From NCBI RefSeq assembly GCF_001625195.1, contig NC_054389.1, forward strand, positions 11,528,520-11,592,519: DNA of 64,000 nucleotides, given 5' to 3'. The first letter of the stretch is position 1. Each line of letters starts with the position of its first letter. Source of the DNA: Drechmeria coniospora (taxonomy: Eukaryota; Ascomycota; Sordariomycetes; Hypocreales; Ophiocordycipitaceae). The position numbers and the translations under genes are program-made. The notes under the pieces are model-generated. The model was not told where the DNA came from. It saw only the letters and a program-made list of their open reading frames with translations, and searched no databases. Shown one piece after another: positions 31,640 to 59,444 of the stretch.

Positions 31640-34600
31640 ATGTTCAATTCACTCCTAAACTTATTTCTATTTTTGATTTTACATTTTAATTCAACTTGCG
31701 CAGCCGAACCACAATGCATCAATGCTACTGTTATAGTAGAGGCTCAGCCAATTGTTTACCAATGCTCTGGAAACATTACAGAAAATACATCAATCAGGTA
31801 AGATCCAAAACCAATTCGTTTAATCAACAACTTCTGTATTAATAACTCGTTCATAGAGAATACATATCATGTGCTGGAGGTCTAACACGCACGGTGGATA
31901 ATACATCTACCATCAGTGTTGAACCAAACACGAGGACTAGAACCGGACTGAAAACTTCAACCATTACGCCAGTACAAAGTGACACGGACTCAACGCGCCG
32001 GGGTATTGTTGGATTTAGTACTTCCACAACCTTTGGGCCAATTGCTGGCACGAGTACCATTTCGCCTCCACCCGGCTGTACGGACAATTGCGTTACCATC
32101 GTCGTCGTTACTGCTACTGGTGGCTTCAGGACTTCGACGATATTTGGGCCAACTGCTGGCACGCTAACCATACCGCCTCCTGCTGGATGCAGAGTTGACT
32201 GTTTTACAAATATTATTGTGACAGTAGCTCCTCCCGGAGGTCCTATTACCGAAACAAAATTTGGTCCGACGGCTGGAACCAGCACGGTTCTACCATCACC
32301 TGGATGTGTTGGTGTCTGCCCTACAAGGGTTATCGTAACCGTTGGTACTACGGGTGTTATTACAGAGTCAACTTTTGGACAAACAGCCGGAACCAGTACT
32401 ATTTTGCCGTCAGCTGGATGTATTGGAAACTGCCCTACAAGGGTGATTGTAACTCGTACGGGTGGTTTTATTACTTCGACGACATATGGACCGACGGCTG
32501 GAACAAGCACAATTCCACCACTACCTGGATGTACAGTTGACTGCTATACGCAAATCATTGTTACTGTTACAGGTGGCTTCAGTACTTTTACAACGTTTGG
32601 ACCAACTGCTGGCACCAGTACAATTCCACCTCCTACTGGATGCACCGTCAACTGCTTTACAAGGATTATCGTCACTATCGTTGGCGGTCGTGTTACATCG
32701 ACGACATTTGGACCAACAGCTGGAACTAGTACTATTCCGCCTCCACCCGGCTGCACTGGCAACTGTGTTACGACTGTCGTCGTTACTGCTACAGGTGGCT
32801 TCAGTACTTCCACGACATTTGGGCCAACAGCTGGCACGAGTACGATTCCACCTCCTGCTGGATGTACCGTGAACTGCTTCACCCGGATTATTGTTACTCT
32901 TACTGCCGGGGTTGTTACTTCAACGACGTTTGGACCGACGGCTGGAACCAGCACTATTCCGCCTCCACCCGGTTGTACTGATAATTGTATTACGACCGTT
33001 GTCGTCACTGCTACGGGAGGCTTCAGTACTTCAACGACCTTTGGAACAGCTGCTGGCACAAGTACCATACCGCCTCCTGCTGGATGTACCGTGAACTGCT
33101 TCACCCGGATTATTGTTACTCTTACTGCCGGGATTGTTACTTCAACGACGTTTGGACCGACGGCTGGAACCAGCACTATTCCGCCTCCACCCGGTTGTAC
33201 TGATAATTGTATTACGACCGTTGTCGTCACTGCTACGGGAGGCTTCAGTACTTCAACGACCTTTGGAACAGCTGCTGGCACAAGTACCATACCGCCTCCT
33301 GCTGGATGTACCGTGAACTGCTTCACCCGGATTATTGTTACTCTTACTGCCGGGGTTGTTACTTCAACGACGTTTGGACCGACGGCTGGAACCAGCACTA
33401 TTCCGCCTCCACCCGGTTGTACTGATAATTGTATTACGACCGTTGTCGTCACTGCTACGGGAGGCTTCAGTACTTCAACGACCTTTGGAACAGCTGCTGG
33501 CACAAGTACCATACCGCCTCCTGCTGGATGTACCGTGAACTGCTTTACCCAAATCATTGTAACTGTTACGGGCGGATTCAGTACTATTACGACATTTGGA
33601 CCTACTGCTGGAACGAGTACGATTCCACCACCACCTGGATGTACAGTTGACTGCTATACACAAATTATTGTAACTGTAGCTCCGACTGGAGGTGTTACTA
33701 CCGAAACTACTTTTGGACCTACGGCTGGGACAAGTACGATTCCACCACCAGCTGGATGTACAGTAAACTGCGTAACGCAAATTATTGTAACTGTTACCGG
33801 CGGATTCAGTACTATTACGACATTCGGACCTACTGCTGGAACTAGCACGATTCCACCACCACTTGGATGCACAGTCAACTGCTATACACAAATTATTGTA
33901 ACTGTAGCTCCGACCGGAGGGGTTGTTACCGAAACTACTTTTGGACCCACGGCTGGGACAAGTACGATTCCACCACCAGCTGGATGTACAGTAAACTGCT
34001 ATACGCAAATCATTGTTACTGTTACGGGCGGATTCAGTACTGTTACGACATTTGGACCTACTCCTGGAACGAGCACGATTCCACCACCACCTGGATGCAC
34101 AGTCAACTGCTATACACAAATTATAGTTACTGTAGCTCCGACTGGAGGTGTTATTACCGAAACTACATTTGGACCCACGGCTGGAATAAGTACAATTCTA
34201 CCACCAGCTGGATGTACAGCAAACTGCGTAACGCATATTATTGTTACTGTTACGGGCGGATTCAGTACTGTTACAACACTTGGACCTACTGCTGGAACGA
34301 GCACGATTCCACCACCACCTGGATGCACAGTCAACTGCTATACACAAATTATAGTTACTGTAGCTCCGACTGGAGGGGTTGTTACCGAAACTACTTTTGG
34401 ACCCACGGCTGGGACAAGTACGATTCCACCACCAGCTGGATGTACAGTAAACTGCTATACGCAAATCATTGTTACTGTTACGGGCGGATTCAGTACTGTT
34501 ACGACATTTGGACCTACTCCTGGAACGAGCACGATTCCACCACCACCTGGATGCACAGTCAACTGCTATACACAAATTATAGTTACTGTAGCTCCGACTG

Positions 34601-37600
34601 GAGGGGTTGTTACCGAAACTACTTTTGGACCCACGGCTGGAATAAGTACAATTCTACCACCAGCTGGATGTACAGCAAACTGCGTAACGCATATTATTGT
34701 TACTGTTACGGGCGGATTCAGTACTGTTACAACACTTGGACCTACTGCTGGAACGAGCACGATTCCACCACCACCTGGATGCACAGTCAACTGCTATACA
34801 CAAATTATAGTTACTGTAGCTCCGACTGGAGGGGTTGTTACCGAAACTACTTTTGGACCCACGGCTGGGACAAGCACGATTCCACCACCGGCTGGATGTA
34901 CAGTAAACTGCGTAACGCAAATCATTGTAACTGTTACGGGCGGATTCAGTACTATTACGACATTCGGACCTACTGCTGGAACTAGCACGATTCCACCACC
35001 ACCTGGATGCACAGTCAACTGCTATACACAAATTATAGTTACTGTAGCTCCGACTGGAGGGGTTGTTACCGAAACTACTTTTGGACCCACGGCTGGGACA
35101 AGCACGATTCCACCACCGGCTGGATGTACAGTAAACTGCGTAACGCAAATCATTGTAACTGTTACCGGCGGATTCAGTACTATTACGACATTCGGACCTA
35201 CTGCTGGAACTAGCACGATTCCACCACCACCTGGATGCACAGTCAACTGCTATACACAAATTATAGTTACTGTAGCTCCGACTGGAGGGGTTGTTACCGA
35301 AACTACTTTTGGACCCACGGCTGGGACAAGCACGATTCCACCACCGGCTGGATGTACAGTAAACTGCGTAACGCAAATTATTGTAACTGTTACCGGCGGA
35401 TTCAGTACTATTACGACATTCGGACCTACTGCTGGAACTAGCACGATTCCACCACCACTTGGATGCACAGTTAACTGCTATACACAAATTATTGTAACTG
35501 TAGCTCCGACCGGAGGGGTTGTTACCGAAACTACTTTTGGACCCACGGCTGGGACAAGTACGATTCCACCACCAGCTGGATGTACAATAAACTGCTATAC
35601 GCAAATCATTGTTACTGTTACGGGCGGATTCAGTACTGTTACGACATTTGGACCTACTGCTGGAACGAGCACGATTCCACCACCACCTGGATGTACAGTC
35701 AACTGCTATACACAAATTATAGTTACTGTAGCTCCGACTGGAGGTGTTATTACTCAAACTACATTTGGACCCACGGCTGGAATAAGTACAATTCTACCAC
35801 CAGCTGGATGTACAGCAAACTGCGTAACGCATATTATTGTTACTGTTACGGGCGGATTCAGTACTGTTACAACATTTGGCCCGACTGCCGGTACAAGTAC
35901 GATTCCACCACCAGCTGGTTGTACAGTTGACTGCTATACGCAAATCATTGTTACTGTTACGGGCGGATTCAGTACTATGACGACATTTGGACCTACTGCT
36001 GGTACTAGTACGATTCTACCGCTACCTGGATGCACAGTAAACTGCTTCACGCAAATCATCGTAACTGTTACTGGTAGTTTATTGACGCAAACCACCCTTG
36101 GACCAACGGCTGGTACCAGTACGATTCCACCACCAGCTGGGTGTACTGTTAATTGCATTACGACTGTTATTGTTACCGCTACAGGTGGCTTTAGTACTGT
36201 TACAACGTTGGGCCCCACTGCCGGTACAAGCACGATTCCACCACCAGCTGGTTGTACAGTTGACTGCTATACGCAAATCATTGTTACTGTTACGGGCGGA
36301 TTTAGTACTATTACAACATTTGGACCTACTGCTGGTACTAGCACGGTTCCACCATCACCCGGATGCACGGTGAACTGTTTTACACAAATTATTGTGACAG
36401 AGGCTACTACAGGTGGCATTGTTACAATTACCACGACTGGACCGACGGCTGGAACAAGTACCGTATTGCCAACCAATTCTGAATGTCCCGATGCAGCCTT
36501 GATGCGCCGCAACGGCCTGGTTGTAAGAAATGAGAACTGCCCGACAACAATCATTGTAACTGTAGTTCCATCTGGTGGTTTAAGTACTGTTACCACGTTT
36601 GGGCCAACCGCCGGTACTAGTACAATTCCACCTCCCTCTGGATGTACAGTTAACTGTGTTACTACTATTATTGTTACTGCCACTGGAGGTTTCAGTACAT
36701 CAACAACCTTTGGACCAACGGCTGGTACTAGCACAATCCCACCACCTCCTGGATGTACTGTGAACTGTTTTACTCAAATTATCGTAACCATAACAGGTAG
36801 TCTTATAACATCTACTACATTTGGGTCGATAGCAGGAACTAGCACTATCCCACCACCACCTGGCTGCACAGCTAATTGCGTTACTACTATTATTGTAACC
36901 GCAACAGGTGGTATTATTACTCAAATAACATTCGGTCCTACTGCTGGTACTAGCACTATTCCACCACCACCGGGCTGTACAGCTAATTGCGTTACTACGG
37001 TTGTCGTAACCGCAACAGGTGGTATTATTACTCAAACAACATTCGGTCCTACAGCTGGTTCTAGCACTATTCCACCACCACCTGGCTGTACAGCTAATTG
37101 CGTTACTACTATTATTGTAACCGCAACTGGTGGTATTATTACTCAAACAACATTCGGTCCTACTGCTGGTACTAGCACTATTCCACCACCACCTGGCTGT
37201 ACAGCCAATTGCGTCACAACGATTATTGTAACAGCAACAGGTGGTATTACCACAGAAACAACATTCGGTCCTACCGCTGGTACTAGCACTATTCCACCAC
37301 CACCTGGCTGCACAGCTAATTGCATTACTACCATTATCGTAACCGCAACTGGTGGTATTACTACAGAAACAACATTCGGTCCTACTGCTGGTACTAGTAC
37401 TATCCTACCATCGCCTGGATGTACTGACAACTGCATTACCACTATTATCGTTACTGCAACAGGTGGGCTTGTCACGTCTACAACCTTTGGACCGACTGCT
37501 GGTACTAGCACCATCCAGCCACCGCCTGGCTGCACTGTCAATTGTGTGACTACTATTATTATTACTGCAACTGGAGGTATCACCACTCAAACGACATTCG

Positions 37601-40600
37601 GTCCTACCGCTGGTACTAGCACTGTACCACCTCCAACTGGCTGCACTGCTAATTGCATTACGACTATTATTGTTACAGCAACTGGTGGTATTACCACTGA
37701 AACAACATTCGGTCCAGTTGCTGGCACGAGCACTATCCCACCATCGCCAGGGTGTACTGCCAACTGCATAACCACTATTATCATTACTGCAACAGGTGGA
37801 TTTGTTACGTCTACCACCTTTGGACCAACTGCTGGTACTAGCACCATACAGCCGCCACCTGGCTGCACAGCCAACTGCGTGACTACCATTGTTGTTACTG
37901 CGACTGGTGGTATTATTACCGAAACAACACTTGGCCCAACTGCTGGTTCTAGCACTATCCCGCCACAAACTGGCTGTACAGCCAATTGTGTCACCACTAT
38001 TATTGTTACTGTAACTGGTGGTGTTATTACTCAAACAACATTCGGTCCTACTGCTGGTACTAGCACTATTTCACCACCACCTGGCTGTACAGCCAATTGC
38101 GTTACTACTGTTATTGTAACCGCAACAGGTGGTATTATTACTCAAACAACATTCGGTCCTACTGCTGGTACTAGCACTATTCCACCACCACCTGGCTGTA
38201 CAGCTAATTGCGTTACTACTATTATTGTAACCGCAACTGGTGGTATTATTACTCAAACAACATTCGGTCCTACTGCTGGTACTAGCACTATTCCACCACC
38301 ACCTGGCTGTACAGCTAATTGCGTTACTACTATTATTGTAACCGCAACAGGTGGTATTATTACTCAAACAACACTCGGTCCTACTGCTGGTACTAGCACT
38401 ATCCCGCCACAAACTGGCTGTACAGCCAATTGTATTACCACTATTATTGTTACTGTAACTGGTGGTGTTATTACTCAAACAACATTCGGTCCTACTGCTG
38501 GTACTAGCACTATTCCACCACCACCTGGCTGCACAGCTAATTGCGTTACTACGGTTGTTGTAACCGCAACAGGTGGTATTATTACTCAAACAACATTCGG
38601 TCCTATTGCTGGTACTAGTACTATTCCACCACCACCTAGCTGCACAGCTAATTGCGTTACTACGATTATTGTAACCGCAACGGGTGGTATTACTACAGAA
38701 ACAACATTCGGTCCTACTGCTGGTACTAGCACTATTTCACCACCACCTGGCTGTACGGCTAATTGCGTTACTACGATTATCGTAACCGCAACTGGTGGTG
38801 TTACTACAGAAACAACATTTGGTCCTACTGCTGGTACTAGCACTATTCCACCACCACCTGGCTGCACGGCTAATTGCGTTACTACGATTATCGTAACAGC
38901 AACTGGTGGTATTACTACTCAGACAACATTCGGTCCTACTGCTGGTACTAGCACTATTCCACCACCACCTGGCTGCACAGCTAATTGCGTTACTACTATT
39001 ATTGTAACCGCAACTGGTGGTATTATTACTCAAACAACATTCGGTCCTACTGCTGGTACTAGCACTATTCCACCACCACCTGGCTGTACAGCTAATTGCG
39101 TTACTACTATTATTGTAACCGCAACAGGTGGTATTATCACTCAAACAACACTCGGTCCTACTGCTGGTACTAGCACTATTCCACCACCACCTGGCTGCAC
39201 AGCTAATTGCGTTACTACGGTTGTCGTAACTGCAACAGGTGGTATTATTACTCAAACAACATTCGGTCCTACTGCTGGTACTAGCACTATTCCACCACCA
39301 CCGGGCTGTACAGCTAATTGCGTTACTACGGTTGTCGTAACCGCAACAGGTGGTATTATTACTCAAACAACATTCGGTTCTACAGCTGGTACTAGCACTA
39401 TTCCACCACCACCTGGCTGTACAGCTAATTGCATTACTACTATTATTGTAACCGCAACAGGTGGTATTATTACTCAAACAACACTCGGTCCTACTGCTGG
39501 TACTAGCACTATTCCACCACCATCTGGCTGCACAGCTAATTGCGTTACTACAATTATTGTAACCGCAACTGGTGGTATTACCACAGAAATAACATTCGGT
39601 CCTACTGCTGGTACTAGCACTATTCCACCACCACCTGGCTGCACAGCTAATTGCGTTACTACTATTATCGTAACCGCAACTGGTGGTATTACCACAGAAA
39701 CAACATTCGGTCCTACTGCTGGTACTAGCACTATTCCACCACCACCTGGCTGTACAGCTAATTGCGTTACTACTATTATTGTAACCGCAACAGGTGGTAT
39801 TATTACTCAAACAACACTCGGTCCTACTGCTGGTACTAGCACTATCCCGCCACAAACTGGCTGTACAGCCAATTGTATCACCACTATTATTGTTACTGTA
39901 ACTGGTGGTGTTATTACTCAAACAACATTCGGTCCTACTGCTGGTACTAGCACTATTTCACCACCACCTGGCTGTACAGCCAATTGCGTTACTACTGTTA
40001 TTGTAACCGCAACAGGTGGTATTATTACTCAAACAACATTCGGTCCTACTGCTGGTACTAGCACTATTCCACCACCACCTGGCTGCACAGCTAATTGCGT
40101 TACTACTATTATTGTAACCGCAACAGGTGGTATTATTACTCAAACAACACTCGGTCCTACTGCTGGTACTAGCACTATTCCACCACCACCTGGCTGCACA
40201 GCTAATTGCGTTACTACGGTTGTCGTAACCGCAACAGGTGGTATTATTACTCACACAACATTCGGTCCTACTGCTGGTACTAGTACTATTCCACCACCAC
40301 CGGGCTGTACAGCTAATTGCGTTACTACGGTTGTCGTAACCGCAACAGGTGGTATTATTACTCAAACAACATTCGGTCCTACAGCTGGTACTAGCACTAT
40401 TCCACCACCACCTGGCTGTACAGCTAATTGCGTTACTACTATTATTGTAACCGCAACAGGTGGTATTATTACTCAAACAACACTCGGTCCTACTGCTGGT
40501 ACTAGCACTATTCCACCACCACCTGGCTGCACAGCTAATTGCGTTACTACAATTATTGTAACCGTAACTGGTGGTATTACTACAGAAACAACATTCGGTC

Positions 40601-43600
40601 CTACTGCTGGTACTAGCACTATTCCACCACCACCGGGCTGTACAGCTAATTGCGTTACTACTGTTGTCGTAACCGCAACAGGTGGTATTATTACTCAGAC
40701 AACATTCGGTCCTACAGCTGGTACTAGCACTATTCCACCACCACCTGGCTGTACAGCTAATTGCGTTACTACTATTATTGTAACCGCAACAGGTGGTATT
40801 ATTACTCAAACAACACTCGGTCCTACTGCTGGTACTAGCACTATTCCACCACCACCTGGCTGCACAGCTAATTGCGTTACTACAATTATTGTAACCGCAA
40901 CTGGTGGTATTACCACAGAAACAACATTCGGTCCTACTGCTGGTACTAGCACTATTTCACCACCACCTGGCTGTACAGCCAATTGCGTTACTACTATTAT
41001 TGTAACCGTAACAGGTGGTATTATTACTCAAACAACATTCGGTCCTACAGCTGGTACTAGCACTATTCCACCACCACCTGGCTGTACAGCTAATTGCGTT
41101 ACTACTATTATTGTAACCGCAACAGGTGGTATTATTACTCAAACAACATTCGGTCCTACTGCTGGTACTAGCACTATTCCACCACCACCTGGCTGCACAG
41201 CTAATTGTATCACTACTATTATCGTAACTGCAACTGGTGGTATTACTACTCAGACAACTTTCGGTCCTACTGCTGGTACTAGCACTATTCCGCCACTACC
41301 TGGCTGCACAGCTAATTGTGTTACTACGATTATCGTAACTGCAACTGGTGGTATTACTACAGAAACAACATTCGGTCCTACTGCTGGTACTAGCACTATT
41401 CCACCACCACCTGGCTGCACAGCTAATTGTATCACTACTATTATCGTAACTGCAACTGGTGGTATTACTACTCAGACAACTTTCGGTCCTACTGCTGGTA
41501 CTAGCACTATTCCGCCACTACCTGGCTGCACAGCTAATTGTATCACTACGATTATCGTAACTGCAACTGGTGGTATTACTACAGAAACAACATTCGGTCC
41601 TACTGCTGGTACTAGCACTATTCCACCACCACCTGGCTGCACAGCTAATTGTATCACTACTATTATCGTAACTGCAACTGGTGGTATTACTACAGAAACA
41701 ACATTCGGTCCTACTGCTGGTACTAGCACTATTCCACCACCACCTGGCTGCACAGCTAATTGTATCACTACTATTATCGTAACGGCAACTGGTGGTATTA
41801 CTACTCAGACAACATTCGGTCCTACTGCTGGTACTAGTACTATTCCACCACCACCTGGCTGCACAGCTAATTGTATCACTACTATTATCGTAACTGCAAC
41901 TGGTGGTATTACTACTCAGACAACATTCGGTCCTACTGCTGGTACTAGTACTATTCCACCACCACCTGGCTGTACGGCAAATTGTATTACTACGATTATC
42001 GTAACCGCAACTGGTGGTATTACCACAGAAACAACATTCGGTCCTACTGCTGGTACTAGCACTATTCCACCACCACCTGGCTGTACAGCTAATTGCGTTA
42101 CTACTATTATTGTAACCGCAACAGGTGGTATTATTACTCAAACTACATTCGGTCCTACTGCTGGTACTAGCACTATTCCACCACCACCGGGCTGTACAGC
42201 TAATTGCGTTACTACGGTTGTCGTAACCGCAACAGGTGGTATTACTACAGAAACAACATTCGGTCCTACTGCTGGTACTAGCACTATTCCACCACTACCT
42301 AGCTGCACAGCTAATTGTATCACTACTATTATCGTAACGGCAACTGGTGGTATTACTACTCAGACAACATTCGGTCCTACTGCTGGTACTAGCACTATTC
42401 CGCCACCACCTGGCTGCACAGCTAATTGTATCACTACTATTATCGTAACTGCAACTGGTGGTATTATTACTCAAACAACATTCGGTCCTACTGCTGGTAC
42501 TAGCACTATTCCACCACCACCTGGCTGCACAGCTAATTGTATTACTACTATTATCGTAACTGCAACTGGTGGTATTATTACTCAAACAACATTCGGTCCT
42601 ACTGCTGGTACTAGCACTATTCCACCACCACCTGGCTGTACAGCTAATTGTATCACTACTATTATCGTAACTGCAACTGGTGGTATTATTACTCAAACAA
42701 CATTCGGTCCTACTGCTGGTACTAGCACTATTCCACCACCACCTGGCTGCACAGCTAATTGTATCACTACTATTATCGTAACTGCAACTGGTGGTATTAC
42801 TACTCAGACAACATTCGGTCCTACTGCTGGTACTAGTACTATTCCGCCACTACCTGGCTGCACAGCTAATTGTGTTACTACGATTATCGTAACAGCAACT
42901 GGTGGTATTACTACTCAGACAACATTCGGTCCTACTGCTGGTACTAGCACTATTCCACCACCACCTGGCTGCACAGCTAATTGCATTACTACCATTATCG
43001 TAACCGCAACTGGTGGTATTACTACTCAAACAACATTCGGTCCTACTGCTGGTACCAGTACTATTCCACCACCTCCTGGCTGCATAGCTAATTGTATAAC
43101 TACTATTATCGTAACCGCAACTGGTGGTATTACTACAGAAACAACATTCGGTCCTACTGCTGGCACCAGCACTATTCCACCACCACCTGGCTGCACAGCT
43201 AATTGCGTTACTACGATTATTGTAACAGCAACTGGTGGTATTACTACAGAAACAACATTTGGTCCTACTGCTGGTACTAGCACTATTCCACCACCACCTG
43301 GCTGTACAGCTAATTGTATCACTACTATTATCGTAACTGCAACTGGTGGTATTACTACTCAGACAACATTCGGTCCTACTGCTGGTACTAGCACTATTCC
43401 GCCACTACCTGGCTGCATAGCTAATTGTGTTACTACGATTATCGTAACAGCAACTGGTGGTATTACTACTCAGACAACATTCGGTCCTACTGCTGGTACT
43501 AGCACTATTCCACCACCACCTGGCTGCACAGCTAATTGCATTACTACCATTATCGTAACCGCAACTGGTGGTATTACTACTCAAACAACATTCGGTCCTA

Positions 43601-46600
43601 CTGCTGGTACCAGTACTATTCCACCACCTCCTGGCTGCACAGCTAATTGTATAACTACTATTATCGTAACGGCAACTGGTGGTATTACTACAGAAACAAC
43701 ATTCGGTCCTACTGCTGGTACTAGCACTATTCCACCACTAACCGGCTGTACAGCTAATTGTGTGACCACTATTATTGTTACTGCAACTGGTGGTATTACC
43801 ACTGAAACAATATTTGGCCCTACTGCTGGTACTAGTACCGTCCAGCCACCGCCTGGCTGTACTGTCAATTGTGTGACTACTATTATTGTTACTGCAACAG
43901 GTGGTATTACCACAGAAACAACATTCGGTCCTACTGCTGGTACTAGCACTATTCCACCACTAACCGGCTGCACAGCCAATTGCATTACCACTATTATTGT
44001 AACCGCAACTGGTGGTATTACTACTCAGACAACATTCGGTCCCACTGCTGGTACCAGCACTGTTTCACCACCACCTGGCTGCACAGCTAATTGCATTACC
44101 ACTATTATTGTAACCGCAACTGGTGGTATTACTACTCAGACAACATTCGGTCCCACTGCTGGTACCAGCACTGTTTCACCACCACCTGGCTGCACAGCTA
44201 ATTGCATTACCACTATTATTGTAACCGCAACTGGTGGTATTACTACTCAGACAACATTCGGTCCCACTGCTGGTACCAGCACTGTTTCACCACCACCTGG
44301 CTGCACAGCTAATTGCATCACTACTATTATTGTTACCGCAACTGGTGGTATTACTACAGAAACAACCTTCGGTCCTACTGCCGGTACTAGCACAATTCCG
44401 CCTCCACCTGGCTGCACCGTTAATTGCGTAACGACAATTATTGTGACTACAACTAGTGATGTTACTTCTGTACAATCCAGTACTTCTATATCCCCTACTT
44501 GTACTCCTGTAACACTCAGGCCGGTGTCACGCTGTTATAGTGGAAACTATGACCATATACTTTCGTTTTCGCCTGATTCTGAATGCGTTCCTTCTAATGG
44601 TTATAATTTGGAAACCCAACTTGGTTGGGTCCTTCCTATCCAGTTGCCTGGCTCGGTTCCGTTATACCGCTGTGTCCAACCGAATCCTCCAGGTCCACTA
44701 AGGCATTTTACAACTACTTCTTCTAATTGTGAGGGAGTTTCTTCCTTTCAGCTTGAAAATCCGAACCCTATTGTCGGCTATGTTTATACAACGCCAAGAT
44801 CAAACACAATAGCCTTATACCGTTGCTATGATAATGATGGTGTTGGTATAGGGGATCATTTTGATACCTTTACTACTAACTGCGAAGGGTCGTCTGCCTT
44901 TCATTCGGAGGGGATTATTGCTTATGTAGTCAATGAGCTATTCGACTCATGTACTACTACTGACGCACCCCCGGAACCTTGTATTGATGCTACACCAAGC
45001 GGTGTATGGCGCTGTTATAGTGGCAACTATGACCATTTACTTTCTACGAGTCCTAATTCGGAATGCGTTCCTGCTAATGGCTATAAGTTGGAATCACAAA
45101 TGGGCTGGGTCCTACCTTTTCAATTGGCTGGTACGGTTCCTCTATACCGCTGCGTTCAACCTAACCCCCCGGGGCCATTAAGGCATTTTTCGACTACTTC
45201 GTCGAATTGCGAAGGAGTTTCTTCTTTCCAGCTTGAAGCCGCAAACCCTATAATTGGCTATGTATATACAACGCCAACTGCGAACACAATAGCCTTATAC
45301 CGCTGCTATGATAATGATGGTGTTGGTATAGGGGACCATTTTGATACCTTTACTACTAACTGCGAAGGGTCGTCTGCCTTTCACTCAGAGGGTGTTATAG
45401 CCTATGTGCTCAGTAGCATAACTGACTATTGCGGTGAACCTGAACCTAACCCCACTTGCACCCCTGTACCGCTTAGGCCAGTGTCGCGTTGTTATAGTGG
45501 AAACTATGACCATATACTTTCGTTTTCGCCTGATTCGGAATGCGTTCCTTCTAATGGTTATAATTTGGAAACCCAACTTGGTTGGGTCCTTCCTATCCAA
45601 TTGCCTGGTTCGGTTCCTTTATACCGCTGCGTCCAACCGAACCCTCCAGGTCCACTAAGGCATTTTACAACTACTTCTTCTAATTGTGAGGGAGTTTCTT
45701 CCTTTCAGCTTGAAAATCCGAACCCTATTGTCGGCTATGTTTATACAACGCCAAGATCAAACACAATAGCCTTATACCGTTGCTATGATAATGATGGTGT
45801 TGGTATAGGGGATCATTTTGATACCTTTACTACTAACTGCGAAGGGTCGTCTGCCTTTCATTCGGAGGGGGTTATTGCTTATGTGGTTAATGGTCTATTC
45901 GACTCATGTACCACTACTGACGCACCCCCGGAACCTTGTATTGATGCTACACCAAGCGGTGTATGGCGCTGTTATAGTGGCAACTATGACCATTTACTTT
46001 CTACGAGTCCTAATTCGGAATGCGTTCCTGCTAATGGCTATAAGTTGGAATCACAAATGGGCTGGGTCCTTCCTTTTCAATTGGCTGGTACGGTTCCTCT
46101 ATACCGCTGCGTTCAACCCAACCCCCCGGGGCCATTAAGGCATTTTTCGACTACTTCGTCGAATTGCGAAGGAGTTCCTTCTTTCCAGCTTGAAGCCGCA
46201 AACCCTATAATTGGCTATGTATATACAACGCCAACTGCGAACACAATAGCCTTATACCGCTGCTATGATAATGATGGTGTTGGTATAGGGGACCATTTTG
46301 ATACCTTTACTACTAACTGCGAAGGGTCGTCTGCCTTTCACTCAGAGGGTATTATAGCCTATGTGCTCAGTAGCATAACTGACTATTGCGGTGAACCTGA
46401 ACCTAACCCCACTTGCACCCCTGTGCCGCTTAGGCCAGTGTCGCGTTGTTATAGTGGAAACTATGACCATATACTTTCGTTTTCGCCTGATTCTGAATGC
46501 GTTCCTTCTAATGGTTATAGTTTGGAAACCCAACTTGGTTGGGTCCTTCCTATCCAATTGCCTGGTTCGGTTCCTTTATACCGCTGCGTCCAACCGAACC

Positions 46601-47358
46601 CTCCAGGTCCACTAAGGCATTTTACAACTACTTCCTCCAATTGCGAGGGAGCAGCAACCTTTCAACTCGAAAATCCGAACCCTATTGTCGGCTATATTTA
46701 TACAACGCCAAGATCAAACACAATAGCCTTATACCGTTGCTATGATAATGATGGTGTTGGTATAGGGGATCATTTTGATACCTTTACTACTAACTGCGAA
46801 GGGTCGTCTGCCTTTCATTCGGAGGGGGTTATTGCTTATATGGTTAATGGTCTATTCGACTCATGTACCACTACTGACGCACCCCCCGAACCTTGTATTG
46901 ATGCTACACCAAGCGCAGTATGGCGCTGTTATAGTGGCAACTATGACCATTTACTTTCTACAAGCCCTAATTCGGAATGCGTTCCTGCCAATGGCTATCA
47001 GTTGGAATCACAAATGGGCTGGGTCCTTCCTTTTCAATTGGCTGGTACGGTTCCTCTATACCGCTGCGTGCAACCTAACCCCCCAGGGCCATTGAGGCAT
47101 TTTTCGACTACTTCGTCTAATTGCGAAGGGGTTTCTTCTTTCCAGCTTGAAGCCGCAAACCCTATAATTGGCTATGTATATGCAACGCCAACCGCGAACA
47201 CAATAGCCTTGTACCGCTGCTATGATAATGATGGTGTTGGTATAGGGGACCATTTTGATACCTTTACTACTAACTGCGAAGGGTCGTCTGCTTTTCACTC
47301 AGAGGGTGTTATAGCCTATGTGCTCAGTAGCCTAACTGACTTTTGTACTGCACAGTAG
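31640..47358 (+). CDS. Giant secreted repeat protein: signal peptide, ~110 flocculin-like units, six DUF5648-like modules
   Basis: Exon 1 (31640-31797) starts at the ATG at 31640 with a strong signal peptide (MFNSLLNLFLFLILHFNSTCA). A 59-base intron (31798-31856; GTAAGA donor, CATAG acceptor) leads into one 15,502-base exon; the total is 5,219 residues. A short N-terminal region (to about residue 103, five Cys) is followed by about 110 units of 37-39 residues to about residue 4252. Consensus pieces are TTFGPTAGTSTIPPPPGC, TANC and VTTIIVTATGG. The T/G-rich beta-strand pattern and TIIVT ending resemble fungal flocculin repeats, but each unit also has C-x3-C. Residues about 4264-5219 hold six modules with RCYSGNYDH, VPLYRC, LRHF and DHFDTFTTNCEGSSAF marks, as in DUF5648 repeats. 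There is no GPI tail; the end is LSSLTDFCTAQ. No stop or frameshift occurs in 15.5 kb. Likely an extracellular adhesin or cell-wall protein (inference). Confidence 0.85.
32008..44454 (+). repeat. In-frame 111-base tandem array with higher-order repeats
   Basis: About 110 units, mostly 111 bases (37 codons); a subset at about 33,660-35,760 has an added two codons (APTGG-V). Higher-order periods are 222 bases (near-identical copies starting 32891, 33113, 33335) and 228 bases (34794, 35022, 35250). From about 36,840 the units become simpler and more alike (IPPPPGCTANC). Three consecutive units at 44,015-44,347 are essentially identical. One unit at about 36,465-36,545 carries a unique insertion. 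Confidence 0.95.
44500..47358 (+). repeat. Three 957-base tandem copies, each encoding two DUF5648-like modules
   Basis: Copies start at the CTPV codons at 44500, 45457 and 46414. Each has an 'LRPVSRCYSGNYDHILS' module followed by a 'GVWRCYSGNYDHLLS' module. The two modules of a pair differ at many residues, whereas equivalent modules of different pairs are almost the same, so the pair was the unit of duplication. Confidence 0.95.
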
Positions 47359-47524
47359 CATTTATACCCATGGTATGTTGATCTGCTGTTACGCTTAGGG
47401 CAACTTGTCGATACTTTGATTGTCTCGTTTCTACTACCCTACTGGATTCATTTCTGTTAATGGCTATTTTTTGGAATTGCAAATGTATTTTATAATCCCC
47501 ATCCAATTGCTTAGTTCTTGTTAA

Positions 47525-48195: not shown

Positions 48196-48330
48196 CTTAG
48201 TTTTTTTGTAGCGCCTTGTTCATCCCAACATTCTAGAGCAGTTGAGGCATTTTCGTCCACTTCTAAATTTAACCGCCTTCCTACTTTTCGAGCAAGCATT
48301 AATGTAGATAAATGTGCCTGAAATGGGTAA

Positions 48331-50145: not shown

Positions 50146-51655
50146 TTACTCCCTATCGACCCAACCTTCAATCCGTATATCAATCTGGTTCGTAGATACA
50201 AGCCGTTCCAGTTTCCGATTTGGCTGTACCTTTGTCATTGCATCGGCTGGGTTCTCGCTTCCGTTAATCCAACGGATCTCTAATATCTCTCGTCGCTCGT
50301 AGCTCTGTCGTATTGCTATAATGTTAATCATTAACCTTTTCTCAGTTGTTGATCCCAGTTTCACAAGACACTCGTATAGCGAATACGAATCAGTACACAT
50401 AATGAGGGGGATATTGGGTATCTGTAATCGGCTGGTAACTGTATTGGCTGTTTGGGTAAGTACGTAGCCCATGTCCAATGCAGATACAGTACCGTATATC
50501 TCGGAAGCAAGTACACTTCTGGCAACTCGTTTACACTTAGTCGATGACCAATGTATTATGTTACCTTGGATTTTGAACTGCTCATTTGTGTGTTCCATTT
50601 CGTTGGCAAGTACAATAATATAGCCAATCTGGGAGGTCAGGTCTTTGTTGTTGGCAAATGATCCGTCCGCAAAGATAAACATCTTTAGGTCCGTTGTGCA
50701 AAGTGGGATAAATCGTAATCCACGGTCTTTGTAATCCAGTTGCCATTGTATGCGTCGATTGAGTGCAAGAATATCAGTATCGGTCGGTGATTGTGCTTGT
50801 ACTGCTACCGAGTAATCCATTGCTGCCTCTGGTTGGCAAAGAGAGGCCAGGTATGCGCCGCGTACCCGTTGTTGCATATACTGCTGGTCTCGGTTGGGGT
50901 CGGTTGCATTGACTGGTTGAAGGTTATCTGCTTGACCTTTCTAGCGTGTATCAATAATACCGTTCTCGATACTAATTTGTAGTCCGTTAAAATCCTTAAT
51001 GGACCTATTGGTGAGTACTGTCTTTGGCTTTGCTGTAATCTTGTGTTGCTGTAGGCTCTGGTCCTCCATCTCCATAAATGCCGTATTGCCCAATTGTATT
51101 GTATCGTCAGTCTGCATTCCTACAATTCCAATAGATTTACTCTCGGAACGCGATACCATCAAACACGGGTCATAGCTGCTTGCATCCATTTCCATCTTAT
51201 CCCTGTAGTGGTTCTGATATGTTAGGAACCAATGTGCTCCTGCCTCTGGAATGCCGTATAACGGTCGCATTACTCGGAAGATTGTACCCTCTGGGTACCG
51301 TTCTGTAATTTCTCGAGGCGGTCGTGCAAGGATTTCGCGGTGTAGCGGTGTATTGGATTGGGTGTATGCTTGTGTAATGTCTCGAATTGCTAGTTGGAAT
51401 CCGTATTGTTGCTGAAGCATTGGTGCTATTGCTAGCACGAGGCGTTGGCTGCAGCGGAGGATTGTCGGAGACTGTGTCAAAATAAACCGTTTCTCGTAAT
51501 CACTGTGGCCCTGTATTACTAGTCATGACTTTTCAAACGGTACGTCGGTAGCCTTGTCCTTAATCTCCCGTACAAGTCGTAGTCCGAAGATCCGAGTATT
51601 ATGCATTGTTGGGTCGAATTGGATAGGAACAATATTACCGCGGCCCCTTCCCGGC
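50146..51655 (-). pseudogene. Copia reverse transcriptase-RNase H with two in-frame stops
   Basis: One continuous frame holds the RVT_2 region (FGLRLVREIKDKATDVPFEKS, then FQLAIRDITQAYTQS, then RPLYGIPEAGAHWF and the MQTDD catalytic pair). The RNase H region follows with FADGSFAN, SVLASEIYG, MCTDSYSLYE and GSENPADAMTK, and its D-E-D-D residues are intact. Stops: TGA at 51523-51525 where copia proteins have Arg (CGA), and TAG at 50941-50943 where they have Gln (CAG). Both are C-to-T changes. Non-functional. Confidence 0.8.
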
Positions 51656-54598
51656 ATTCCTTATACGCTTTAAAGAGAAACTTACACTAGCGGGAGGGAT
51701 TTATTGGCCCAGCGAGGTAAGACTAATAAAACTTCGCATCGGGCTATCTAAGCGGATAAGGGAATGCATTCTCTATTGAGGTATAACAATAGACGACTAC
51801 AATAAGGCAGTAGATATATCTAAGCGAATTGCAGCAGAGATAGAATCGCAGCGTATAGATAACAGGATTAGGGACCGAGGCGGGCCCGGCCCGGGGCCAA
51901 CGAGGATAGCGGCCTTACACAACAAGGACGGCGACACTCCGATGTCAGGGGTCAACTCGGCGGGCTCTAGGACTACGCTCTCCTCCGGGCCGGCTACTGC
52001 CCGTCCGTCGGCAAAAGCGAACCGGGCCCGAACCGGGCCTTAGAGGCGGGTAATATAGGTGCCGCAGGAGGAAAGGGACAAGCGCCGAGCGGCCGGTATA
52101 TATATTCGCTGTAGGGAGGAAGGACACTTCATTCGGCAGTGCCCCCAGCGACCAGTACACCTACTAGCGCCGGGGTCGAGCATTCGGATGACTCGAGGGG
52201 AGGAGTTTGACGACGACGAACCCGATGTTAAAGGGGGGGAGGGAAAAGACGCGCCTTCGAGCTAAGTCTCGCACAGAGGCGCAATAGGGTTGCAGGCAGA
52301 AGGACCACTAGGAATTAAGGAAGCTAGGATAGCGAATTCAGGGAAATTTCACCTAGGATGGATGGACTACTATTCTTTGTTCCTATACTCATGAATTCAA
52401 TAAGACTCCTTAACGTTCAGATTAATAGCGGCTGCAACTACTTTAGGGCTATTAGTAAAAATAGCCCAACGCTTATAACTCGAGCTTATCCTACTTCCGA
52501 CCAAACGACTGCTATAAACAGTAGTCTCTATATCCCGCCGGAACAAGGGTACTACTCTTTCCCGACCAACAATAACCTACATAACACGGACGACAATCGA
52601 CATAAACGGTTGGGAGAGTCCAGTACTACTTTACGTAGTCCCAGGACTAAGCCGGGACGCAATCTTAGGGCTACCTTGAATGGAACACCGCCGGGTAATA
52701 CTAAACGCAACGGACCGGACCCTAGCAGAGCCACTTACTGCACTTATTGGAAAGGTATCCCATTTAATTAGGGCAAGGCAGAGGACACAGCCTTCCAGTC
52801 CCTTAAAAATACTTTTATATCCCACCCAATCCTTATATAATAGAATCCGGATAGAAAGACTATAGTCGAAACGGACTACTCAGGCAAAGAATTAGGCGGA
52901 TGCCTCTTACAGATTAACAACAAGAGTATACTACGACCAGTAGCATACTACTCTGCTAAACTTACGCCAGCAGAGAAGAACTATACCATCTACGACAAAG
53001 AACTTCTTATAGTAGTCAGCTGTCTCAAAGTATAGACGACGTCATTACAGGGCGTTACAGATCCGTTTACAATACTTACAGACTACAAAAAACTCGAGTA
53101 CTTTACAAGACCCCGGGAGATGTCCGAACGGCAGGCTTGGTGGGCGGAAGTCCTTGCAAATTTCAACTACGCGCTACAGTACAAGCCGGGATTACAGGCA
53201 CAACGTCCGGACGCACTATTACGAAGGGAACAGGACGAGGAGGACGAACCACGCCGAGGGCAGATACTCCAACCGATAACGATCTTAACGTTACAGGACG
53301 AGGGCAGGACCCTATACGAGCCAATGGCGGACAGCACCCGAGAGACAGTACCAATCGAAACGGACAGCGTCGGGACCCAGTCGGGCCCAGGAGCAGAGCG
53401 GTAGGTCTACCACACAACCCAGCCAACGCTAGGGACGGAGGACTCCGGGACCCTAACAGCTATCGTCGAGAGGACGCATAGGACCCGGGCAGCGGCCGTC
53501 TTGGACCCAGACAGGGGGGTGCCCGCTGGCCGACTTCTCTTCCCTGAAGTCTACTTACAGGAGCTCTAGGACCTAGCGATACAGATCGACTATACTTACG
53601 GAGCCCGATATCGCGCATTTTTAGAAGGGGTTCGAAAATTCCCTATAGAGGCCAATACGAAGGAATAAATCGCAGACTACAATTAGCGCCTACGGTACAA
53701 TACACTACCGAGGACGCCTATAGTTACTAGTATAGGAACTACTTGTAATACGGATAATACAACAAGTACACGAATTGCCGGTATTAGGCCACCCCCCGGA
53801 CACTCCAGCGGGACTTTTACTAGAATGGTATATTACAGGACGTAGTACGGTACGTCCGGAACTGCTTCTGTTACCGAAGCCGCAAGAGCCGCCTACAACT
53901 ACAAGGCCTACTACAACCGATTCCCCTAGCGCATAGGTATTGGAAACAGATTTCGATCGACTTTATAACAGACCTCCCAGTACAAAAAGAGACAGACCCA
54001 CGCTACCTAATAGTTATTACGGACCGCCTCTCTAAGTTTATCCAGCGAGAGGTAATAGTTTCAATAAGTACAGAAGCCTGCGCCGAACGCTTCAAAACAT
54101 ACTGGTAGTGGCTTAGGGGCTTCCCTATACAGATTATAACAAACCGGGGTTCGGACTGGCTAAGTAGATTTTGGACAACCCTATGCTCCCATGCTCCCTA
54201 GTCGGTACCGAACAGCTCCTATCTATATTACACTACCTACAGACGGATAGGGGTACAGAAAGAGCCAACCAGGAGATCCAAGCCGTCCTACGCATACTGG
54301 TATCGTTTGAGCAATTCGACTAGCCGTCTTACCTAGCCGTATATCAGCTCGCCCTAAACAATAGGAAATCTATCGGTACAGAAGTAAGCCCAAATAAGCT
54401 ACTACTTGGCTACAAAATAGACGTTATACTAAGACTAGACAACGTCCAGGCTAGTAAGACCTTACTAAAAGGGAGAGCAATAGCCTTCTTACAGCGCCTA
54501 CGGGAGCGAATAGAAGTTATACAAGCAGTTATTACCTTTATACAATAGCGCCTACACGAATTAGCAGTATTATTAGGCCGTCTAGCAGAGAGGTTTAG

Positions 54599-58559: not shown

Positions 58560-58925
58560 CGTGCAATACCATCCACGGAACTCCAATATATATAGCGAAG
58601 ACGTCCTATCCTTCGGTTCTCGGATACTAATTCGTTTTTGCCAGAACTGCTTGGCCTTCGCTTCAGTCGGTCTACGCAATTGTATAGCTCTAATAACTTT
58701 TCTGTATCTGTGTCTTGTCAGGCCTTTCCTGGCCCTCCGCATATTAATGATCGCTCGTCTTCGTGGGATGGAACGTGGTATTTCGATGGATCCCGGCACA
58801 TGTCGGCGTGCCAGGAAACGAAGTCGCGGACTGGGCGGCCAAAGAAGCGGCCGGCCACGACCCAAACGCTAATTCTCCACCCTTCCAGAGGAAAGGCTCA
58901 CATACAGAAGAACTGGCCAAAGGCA
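58560..58925 (+). pseudogene. LINE RNase H fragment
   Basis: A frame reading [20 protein letters not shown] followed by KEAAGHD is the C-terminal half of the RNase H domain of fungal LINEs (Tad1/I type). The preceding 'QYHPRNSN' resembles the usual upstream helix. Only this fragment remains; it is fused to hAT sequence at about 58,925. Confidence 0.7.
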
Positions 58926-59444
58926 TGGCACAAGCAGATATTTACAGGAGTGAAGAAGTTATGGGAAGACGAATACAAGAACTTACCAACCATCTACACT
59001 ACTCCTTCAATTGTCCCGGCACTGGAGCTGGATGAGTATGACCTGCTTGCGCAGGAACCTGAAGTCATAGGCACAGACCCCTACGTTGATGAGTACGAAA
59101 CCTACACCTCCCAGTCACCAATTCCAATTGACTGCTCCCCTCTTGCGTGGTGGCTCCGCGATGAGCAACATGAACGCTTTCCTCGACTATCAAATATGGC
59201 AATAGACATTCTGTCAATACCCGCCATGTCTGCTGACCCTGAGCGTACATTTTCTGGAGCACAGCGTACAATTTCGTGGGATAGAATGCTTCTTGGAGCA
59301 TCGACCATTGAAAAGGGGGAATGCTTAAAGAGCTGGATTCGCAACGGCATAACGGCAGAGCTACATGGAGAGGGGGTCCAGCAATATGAGTGCATAGCAA
59401 AGGAGGGCAGCACAGGCGCTCTAGGGGTAGATGTGGTCCCTTGA
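58926..59444 (+). pseudogene. hAT transposase C-terminal dimerisation domain remnant
   Basis: The frame carries [15 protein letters not shown], then SPLAWWLRDEQHERFPRLSN, then MAIDILSIPAMSADPERTFS and WDRMLLGASTIEKGECLKSW. These are the conserved W-W, P...S-x2-R-x-F-S and L-x5-E-x4-W features of the hAT dimerisation domain. It ends with a stop at 59444. N-terminal zinc finger and catalytic region are absent. Confidence 0.8.

Follow-up and report, generated by a model that had tools for sequence, protein, structure and literature searches.

The window analyzed here, a 64,000-nucleotide stretch of the Drechmeria coniospora genome (NC_054389.1, positions 11,528,520 to 11,592,519), lies on a 12.54-Mb contig of a 32.83-Mb assembly made of 28 contigs, three of which are large (12.54, 10.20, and 9.75 Mb). 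About 1 Mb from the end of this contig, it carries a gene of two exons (31640–47358) whose translation of 5,219 residues, 25.2% of them T and 5.3% C, has a single stop codon at its end (TAG, 47356–47358). The frame of exon 2 runs from stop to stop over 31846–47358, that is, 5,170 codons. A frame of this length would not be expected from chance, although a very young tandem array could still be trivially open. The gene and its surroundings comprise the following features:

31640..31797, + strand: exon 1 (158 bases, ATG at 31640), encoding the predicted signal peptide and an N-terminal motif (VIVEAQPIVYQCSG, which aligns with VEFQPFQIICSG of the sister genes)
31798..31856, + strand: phase-2 intron of 59 bases, GT...AG, at a place common to the seven sister genes fetched (by eye)
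31857..47358, + strand: exon 2, stop codon included (open frame and translation)
32011..44463 (ends approximate), + strand: stalk with 110 C-x3-C motifs in units mostly of 37 residues (motif count)
36364..36642, + strand: the single irregular spacing within the stalk, 93 residues (motif spacing)
44530..44928, + strand: DUF5648 module 1, type A (Pfam and module alignment, as for the next five)
45010..45408, + strand: DUF5648 module 2, type B
45487..45885, + strand: DUF5648 module 3, type A
45967..46365, + strand: DUF5648 module 4, type B
46444..46842, + strand: DUF5648 module 5, type A
46924..47322, + strand: DUF5648 module 6, type B
47423..47516, + strand: candidate decayed remnant of a further module, past the stop (nhmmer E 1.7e-4; not in blastn at 1e-3; no shuffled control)
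48202..48263, + strand: candidate second decayed module fragment (nhmmer E 1.4e-3; not in blastn)

The splice model, translated without internal stop, bears out the 15.5-kb open frame, the signal-peptide exon, and the 59-base intron proposed in a previous sequence-only reading of the window. The same holds for its about 110 C-x3-C units and six DUF5648-like modules: we counted 110 motifs, and Pfam delimits six stretches. The candidate module relics were detected by nhmmer only; the sixth copy in the model included 45 bases past the stop, which are the source of a third match. Signal peptide and GPI signal were both assessed by a hydropathy scan alone. Over the last 40 residues, the 15-residue mean peaks at 1.44, within module 6; the value for the signal peptide is 1.83, and the tails of seven sisters range from 0.02 to 0.93. 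No GPI signal is evident in these last 40 residues, in agreement with the earlier proposal of C-terminal DUF5648 modules on a protein lacking a GPI anchor.

Among the 109 C-x3-C spacings of the stalk, 96 are of 37 residues, 11 of 39, one of 38, and one of 93, and all preserve the reading frame. The 96 units of 37-residue spacing comprise 83 distinct DNA sequences and 59 distinct protein sequences. Structure prediction gave a mean pLDDT of 44, which is uninformative about the fold, and the stalk has no match in the PDB. Three pieces of the protein were scanned with Pfam (334 + 673 + 1,042 = 2,049 of 5,219 residues). In these pieces, the flocculin repeats PF00624 and PF13928 had no match at E values up to 1, and the initial description of the units as flocculin-like is not retained; the Candida_ALS repeat (PF05792), present in sisters, is likewise absent from the same 2,049 residues. 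Matches to DUF6931 and Spectrin_2 in Pfam and to TIGR00199 in NCBIfam presumably reflect composition and were set aside. Among 8,000 candidate proteins scored, stalk matches with an E value of 0.001 or below came from three, all of them carrying GLEYA/PA14: RJ55_04776 of D. coniospora itself, VTK73DRAFT_8766 of Phialemonium thermophilum, and a Clonostachys rosea protein. They share the C-x3-C unit type, with 43–47% identity over 24–74% of the query, but are shorter (539–1017 residues), with fewer units and a GLEYA head. A search for giant homologs with residues 3600–5170 of exon 2 gave no match at E 0.001 or better among 1,205 candidates scored, a result that the repeats may confuse and that is no proof that the gene is unannotated.

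The C-terminal piece matches DUF5648 (PF18885) with an E value of 1.1e-50 and 171.7 bits, for a curated cut-off of 25, and each of the six stretches passes this cut-off alone. The modules alternate between type A (1, 3, and 5) and type B (2, 4, and 6), with amino-acid identities of up to 99%. Three R-C motifs (RCYSG, LYRCV, and LYRCY) occur in all six, which is in line with a putative three-bladed beta-alpha propeller. Against the PDB, the head gave only weak, unrelated-looking matches, and a profile search was similarly unconvincing. Within the D. coniospora genome, a module query retrieved the six modules of the window gene together with two distant matches in frames of 578 and 152 residues, and the DUF5648 family search added one match in a frame of 311 residues; modules of this kind were found in no other giant frame. 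When module A was compared with individual loci of the same genome, two gave 29 and 30 bits (L001 and L024), and a third, L005, no convincing match (4.5 bits). The modules are 27–35% identical to seven bacterial proteins found among 784 candidates, and module A scored 51 bits against a Xanthomonas protein (P0002). A bacterial genome scan with one module produced 24 pattern matches, none of them confirmed. Horizontal transfer from bacteria is a possible origin of the DUF5648 head.

Searches of the D. coniospora genome ruled out that the gene is unique. The count of related open frames with a length of 3,000 residues or above reaches at least 41. Of these, 39 belong to a tally that sums to 168,207 residues, and two came from a search with a made-up average unit. 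Three stalk units gave at least 185 matches spread over many giant frames (150 of 2,177 candidates scored), and the average unit at least 189 (150 of 4,263 candidates scored). Searches with other queries yielded at least 148 matches for a GLEYA protein of D. coniospora (45 of 416 candidates scored), at least 37 for DUF6923, some of them under the cut-off, at least 15 for one unnamed head, and 64 for GLEYA (PF10528) among the matches listed, none of which falls in the 5,170-residue frame of the window. RJ55_04776 matched its own genome with 100% identity over residues 57–1017, in two overlapping pieces. Stops interrupt some of the family matches. Among the matches listed, at least 27 of the 41 frames show stalk units, the rest being counted by their head alone. 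Head labels are single matches, some of them weak, such as those for DUF6923 at C3:775317 and C3:9574361 and for the unnamed head at C3:488452 (E 5e-5), and one giant frame has no head label. These are counts of open frames, which differ from gene models, as one gene may span two frames or the reverse. The frame of the window ranks fourth in length among 53 tallied frames of at least 1,000 residues, which does not support the earlier view of an exceptionally long stalk.

The seven sister loci compared here stood highest in the stalk-unit match list and are therefore not a random sample. Like the window gene, all seven have a QP....CS motif in the first exon, followed by an intron at the same phase-2 place (by eye); their first exons are 20–34% identical to that of the window gene. 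In five of the seven, splicing is required to enter the stalk frame. In the other two (C1 12.24 Mb and C3 313 kb), the frame is also open through the intron and, because no stop forces it, the intron is deduced there by comparison. Beyond its GT and AG motifs, the predicted intron of the window gene thus finds support in the sister genes. The sisters, exemplified by C1:12237962–12254488 and C2:6953291–6968860, also share the C-x3-C array, with 64–117 motifs compared with 110 in the window gene, and a low GC content at third codon positions (0.27–0.37 compared with 0.27). They differ by their C-terminal heads: Pfam recognizes GLEYA/PA14 in five, DUF6923 in one, and no head in one, and at least two of the seven harbor Candida_ALS-type repeats (one in an N-terminal piece and one in a C-terminal piece). 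By eye, three further C-termini end in a different, glycine-rich kind of domain. Judged by sequence, the window gene is one paralog of a giant-frame family with at least 41 members. As one kind of stalk is combined with various heads in the sisters examined, these heads probably bind different ligands.

Pairs of the 96 stalk units of 37 residues gave pooled pS and pN values of 0.468 and 0.098 and a corrected dN/dS of 0.144, and adjacent units a dN/dS of 0.200; these figures are descriptive and carry no test, because the units are related by duplication, perhaps also by conversion, and their pairs are not independent. Values between units are not near 1, the outcome by which the sequence-only reading would have been refuted. 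Among the modules, all nine A-versus-B pairs gave values of 0.11–0.16 and all six same-type pairs 0.04–0.30. As a control, the units were read in the five other frames, four of which gave 1.5–1.8; the fifth, which is antisense and shares its third positions with the gene, gave 0.23. Stalk units and modules are under purifying selection. The finding of 83 different DNA sequences among 96 units indicates that the array is not very young. An open frame of this length had been taken to imply either selection or a very recent origin: selection stands, and recent origin does not. The low GC3 contrasts with the 61% GC reported for the exons of the genome (PMC4792172), and the evidence for repeat-induced point mutation (RIP) as its source is mixed. 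In the stalk, third-position T is not most frequent before A (0.78, compared with 0.91 before C), whereas it is in the modules (0.83 before A); on the other strand, third-position A reaches its highest frequency after T in the stalk (0.87) and does not do so in the modules.

The gene is flanked on its left by frames matching ordinary families (GNAT, MFS, amino-acid permease, and phosphoesterase, one frame each). Of the ten neighboring frames scanned, the other six (five to the left and one to the right) have no family match. On the right side, we had by eye the impression of broken transposon pieces. The transposon graveyard initially described around the gene applies at best to a part of the surroundings. 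The three large contigs correspond in size to the chromosomes of 12.5, 10.2, and 9.8 Mb described for strain ARSEF 6962 (PMC4792172). Two Swedish strains have chromosomes of 8.5, 11.6, and 11.6 Mb, and the nine chromosomes inferred for another strain (PMC4859500) were corrected to three (PMC7500977). Each chromosome is described as bordered by species-specific repeats of about 0.5 Mb (PMC4792172). Of the 39 tallied giant frames, 26 lie no more than 0.5 Mb from the end of a contig, compared with 9% expected. The giant frames may form part of these flanking repeats, and the ALS (ten) and GLEYA (nine) proteins reported as expanded in D. coniospora (PMC4792172) may be pieces of giant frames.

We consider it likely that the gene encodes a stalked surface adhesin, laid out like the GLEYA adhesins with a C-terminal head, in which DUF5648 would act as a glycan-binding head. 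The protein would be secreted by means of its signal peptide. The about 110 threonine-rich units with paired cysteines would build a long stalk, which probably measures hundreds of nanometers and is O-glycosylated. The six modules, arranged as three A-B pairs, could form a multivalent head in which six copies provide avidity, and the protein would be retained in the wall or spore coat in the absence of a GPI anchor. Its likely setting would be conidia attaching to the nematode cuticle or to other surfaces. Other fungi combine this kind of stalk with GLEYA heads, and DUF5648 is most simply read here as a substitute for GLEYA. Glycan recognition has, in addition, been proposed as the role of DUF5648 in bacteria. 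The transcription data reported for D. coniospora speak against an adhesin role, as none of the ten ALS genes and one of the nine GLEYA genes are described as highly transcribed (PMC4792172).

The sequence-only reading knew of no described system with this layout. It is in fact that of the GLEYA adhesins of fission yeast and other ascomycetes, which combine a signal peptide, repeats, and a C-terminal ligand-binding domain with no GPI signal (PMC6308950, PMC8621652; Linder and Gustafsson 2007/2008, as cited in PMC6308950, PMC3516552, and PMC4859500). The window protein differs from them by its head of six DUF5648 modules instead of GLEYA and by its about 110 units and 5,219 residues. Further points against the adhesin reading are that GLEYA domains in yeasts are N-terminal and that the GPI anchor of the GLEYA adhesin Epa1 is essential to adherence (PMC8621652, PMC6308950). 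The Flo/flocculin and Als adhesins of yeasts are comparable by analogy, with a threonine-rich repeat stalk and a binding domain, but their head is N-terminal and they are GPI-anchored (PMC8621652), and the pieces of the window protein scanned lack flocculin and ALS matches. The bacterial DUF5648 proteins (BSAP toxins, GH70 enzymes, and a prophage endolysin) belong to the same domain family, whose curated cut-off the window modules pass; there the domain sits on toxins and enzymes and not on a fungal stalk. In the literature searched, whose coverage is incomplete, we found no description of a DUF5648 head on a fungal adhesin or of a giant adhesin family. The stalked fungal adhesin is thus known as a kind, and what would be new is the DUF5648 head in such a layout and the scale of the family.

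Two other interpretations deserve consideration. The protein could be a structural coat or matrix component of the spore wall or adhesive knob, whose stalk cross-links into a gel while DUF5648 faces inward and holds the wall polysaccharide of the fungus itself. Its many cysteines and the lack of an evident GPI signal would suit this function, as would one enterococcal prophage endolysin in which DUF5648 is joined to a GH25 muramidase domain (PMC13379245), and for C-terminal-head adhesins an alternative form of wall attachment has been suggested (PMC6308950). We nevertheless regard a coat protein as unlikely, given that five of the seven sisters carry at the same place GLEYA/PA14, a lectin-type domain that in yeasts binds outward ligands (PMC8621652). 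Equally improbable in our view is an unexpressed gene in a subtelomeric reserve, still open after recent selection, whose role would be that of a recombination template for other family members. Reported expression is low for most ALS and GLEYA genes (PMC4792172), and both the clustering of giant frames near contig ends and the stops in some family matches agree with such a reserve. Against it, the window gene lies about 1 Mb from the end of its contig and has a dN/dS well under 1. In the stalk, this low value could stem from conversion by expressed relatives, but not in the head, because searching with a module yields no close copy in the rest of the genome. Finally, a wrong number of units or modules, or a frame created by the assembly, is most improbable: tandem units and near-identical modules are hard to assemble, and stretches of undetermined sequence as long as 500 kb are reported for the assembly, along with rearrangements relative to a related strain (PMC7500977), but all spacings are in frame, most units differ in DNA sequence, seven sisters share the same build, and the assembly was based on PacBio, 454, and Solexa reads with optical mapping at 458-fold coverage (PMC4792172).

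If the gene encodes a stalked adhesin, as we favor, its interest would lie in the infection of Caenorhabditis elegans by D. coniospora, which follows adhesion of the spores to the cuticle (PMC4859500). Surface proteins are named as candidates for this adhesion in the genome description (PMC4792172). With at least 41 giant frames, compared with the published nine GLEYA and ten ALS proteins, the list of adhesion candidates would be a different one. One stalk bearing several kinds of heads also offers a ready comparison for head ligands, in a standard host. DUF5648, a domain of unassigned function treated for bacteria and prophage in the literature found, gains a place in a putative fungal surface protein. 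We tentatively propose that D. coniospora might possess a large repertoire of giant adhesins with interchangeable heads, mostly located near chromosome ends and exceeding published counts, and that the window member may have gained a bacterial-type DUF5648 propeller, possibly from bacteria, and with it a new target, which could be a glycan of the nematode surface or bacteria on or near the worm.

Searches of the D. coniospora genome identified a minimum of 41 related open frames, each no shorter than 3,000 residues, whose heads, the C-terminal domains, are GLEYA, DUF6923, glycine-rich or unnamed. Two thirds of the giant frames tallied lie in the vicinity of contig ends. Examples on contigs C1 to C3 are:

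C3:600318, giant frame of 6,916 aa
C1:12237962-12254488, giant frame
C2:6953291-6968860, giant frame

Three giant frames (L044, L045 and L046) terminate, as judged by eye, in yet another type of domain, which is GGGG-rich. Passages of the genome paper count nine GLEYA and ten ALS proteins in this species (PMC4792172). Head searches also revealed family-head matches with internal stop codons at five loci:

C2:9693376-9693651
C2:40482-40739
C2:437396-437674
C1:12347529-12348185
C2:9836993-9837754

These are likely pseudogenes alongside intact giants.

Two weak, decayed-looking DUF5648-module matches were detected by nhmmer 3' of the stop codon of the window gene:

47423-47516
48202-48263

They suggest a formerly longer DUF5648 array; blastn gave no module match at either position. 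Further right, three short frames resemble, by eye, broken transposon proteins:

50146-51522
52328-53481
58596-59444

A Pfam scan of 50149-50940, within the first, gave no match.

GC3 is 0.27-0.37 across the window gene (31640-47358) and seven sister giants; exon GC is given as 61% in a passage of the genome paper, another of which sets active RIP at a TpA/ApT index >0.89 (PMC4792172). Since this index is 1.5-2.1 at 32001-44000, within an intact, selected gene, as against the 0.89 threshold, its use may class giant coding repeats among RIP regions.
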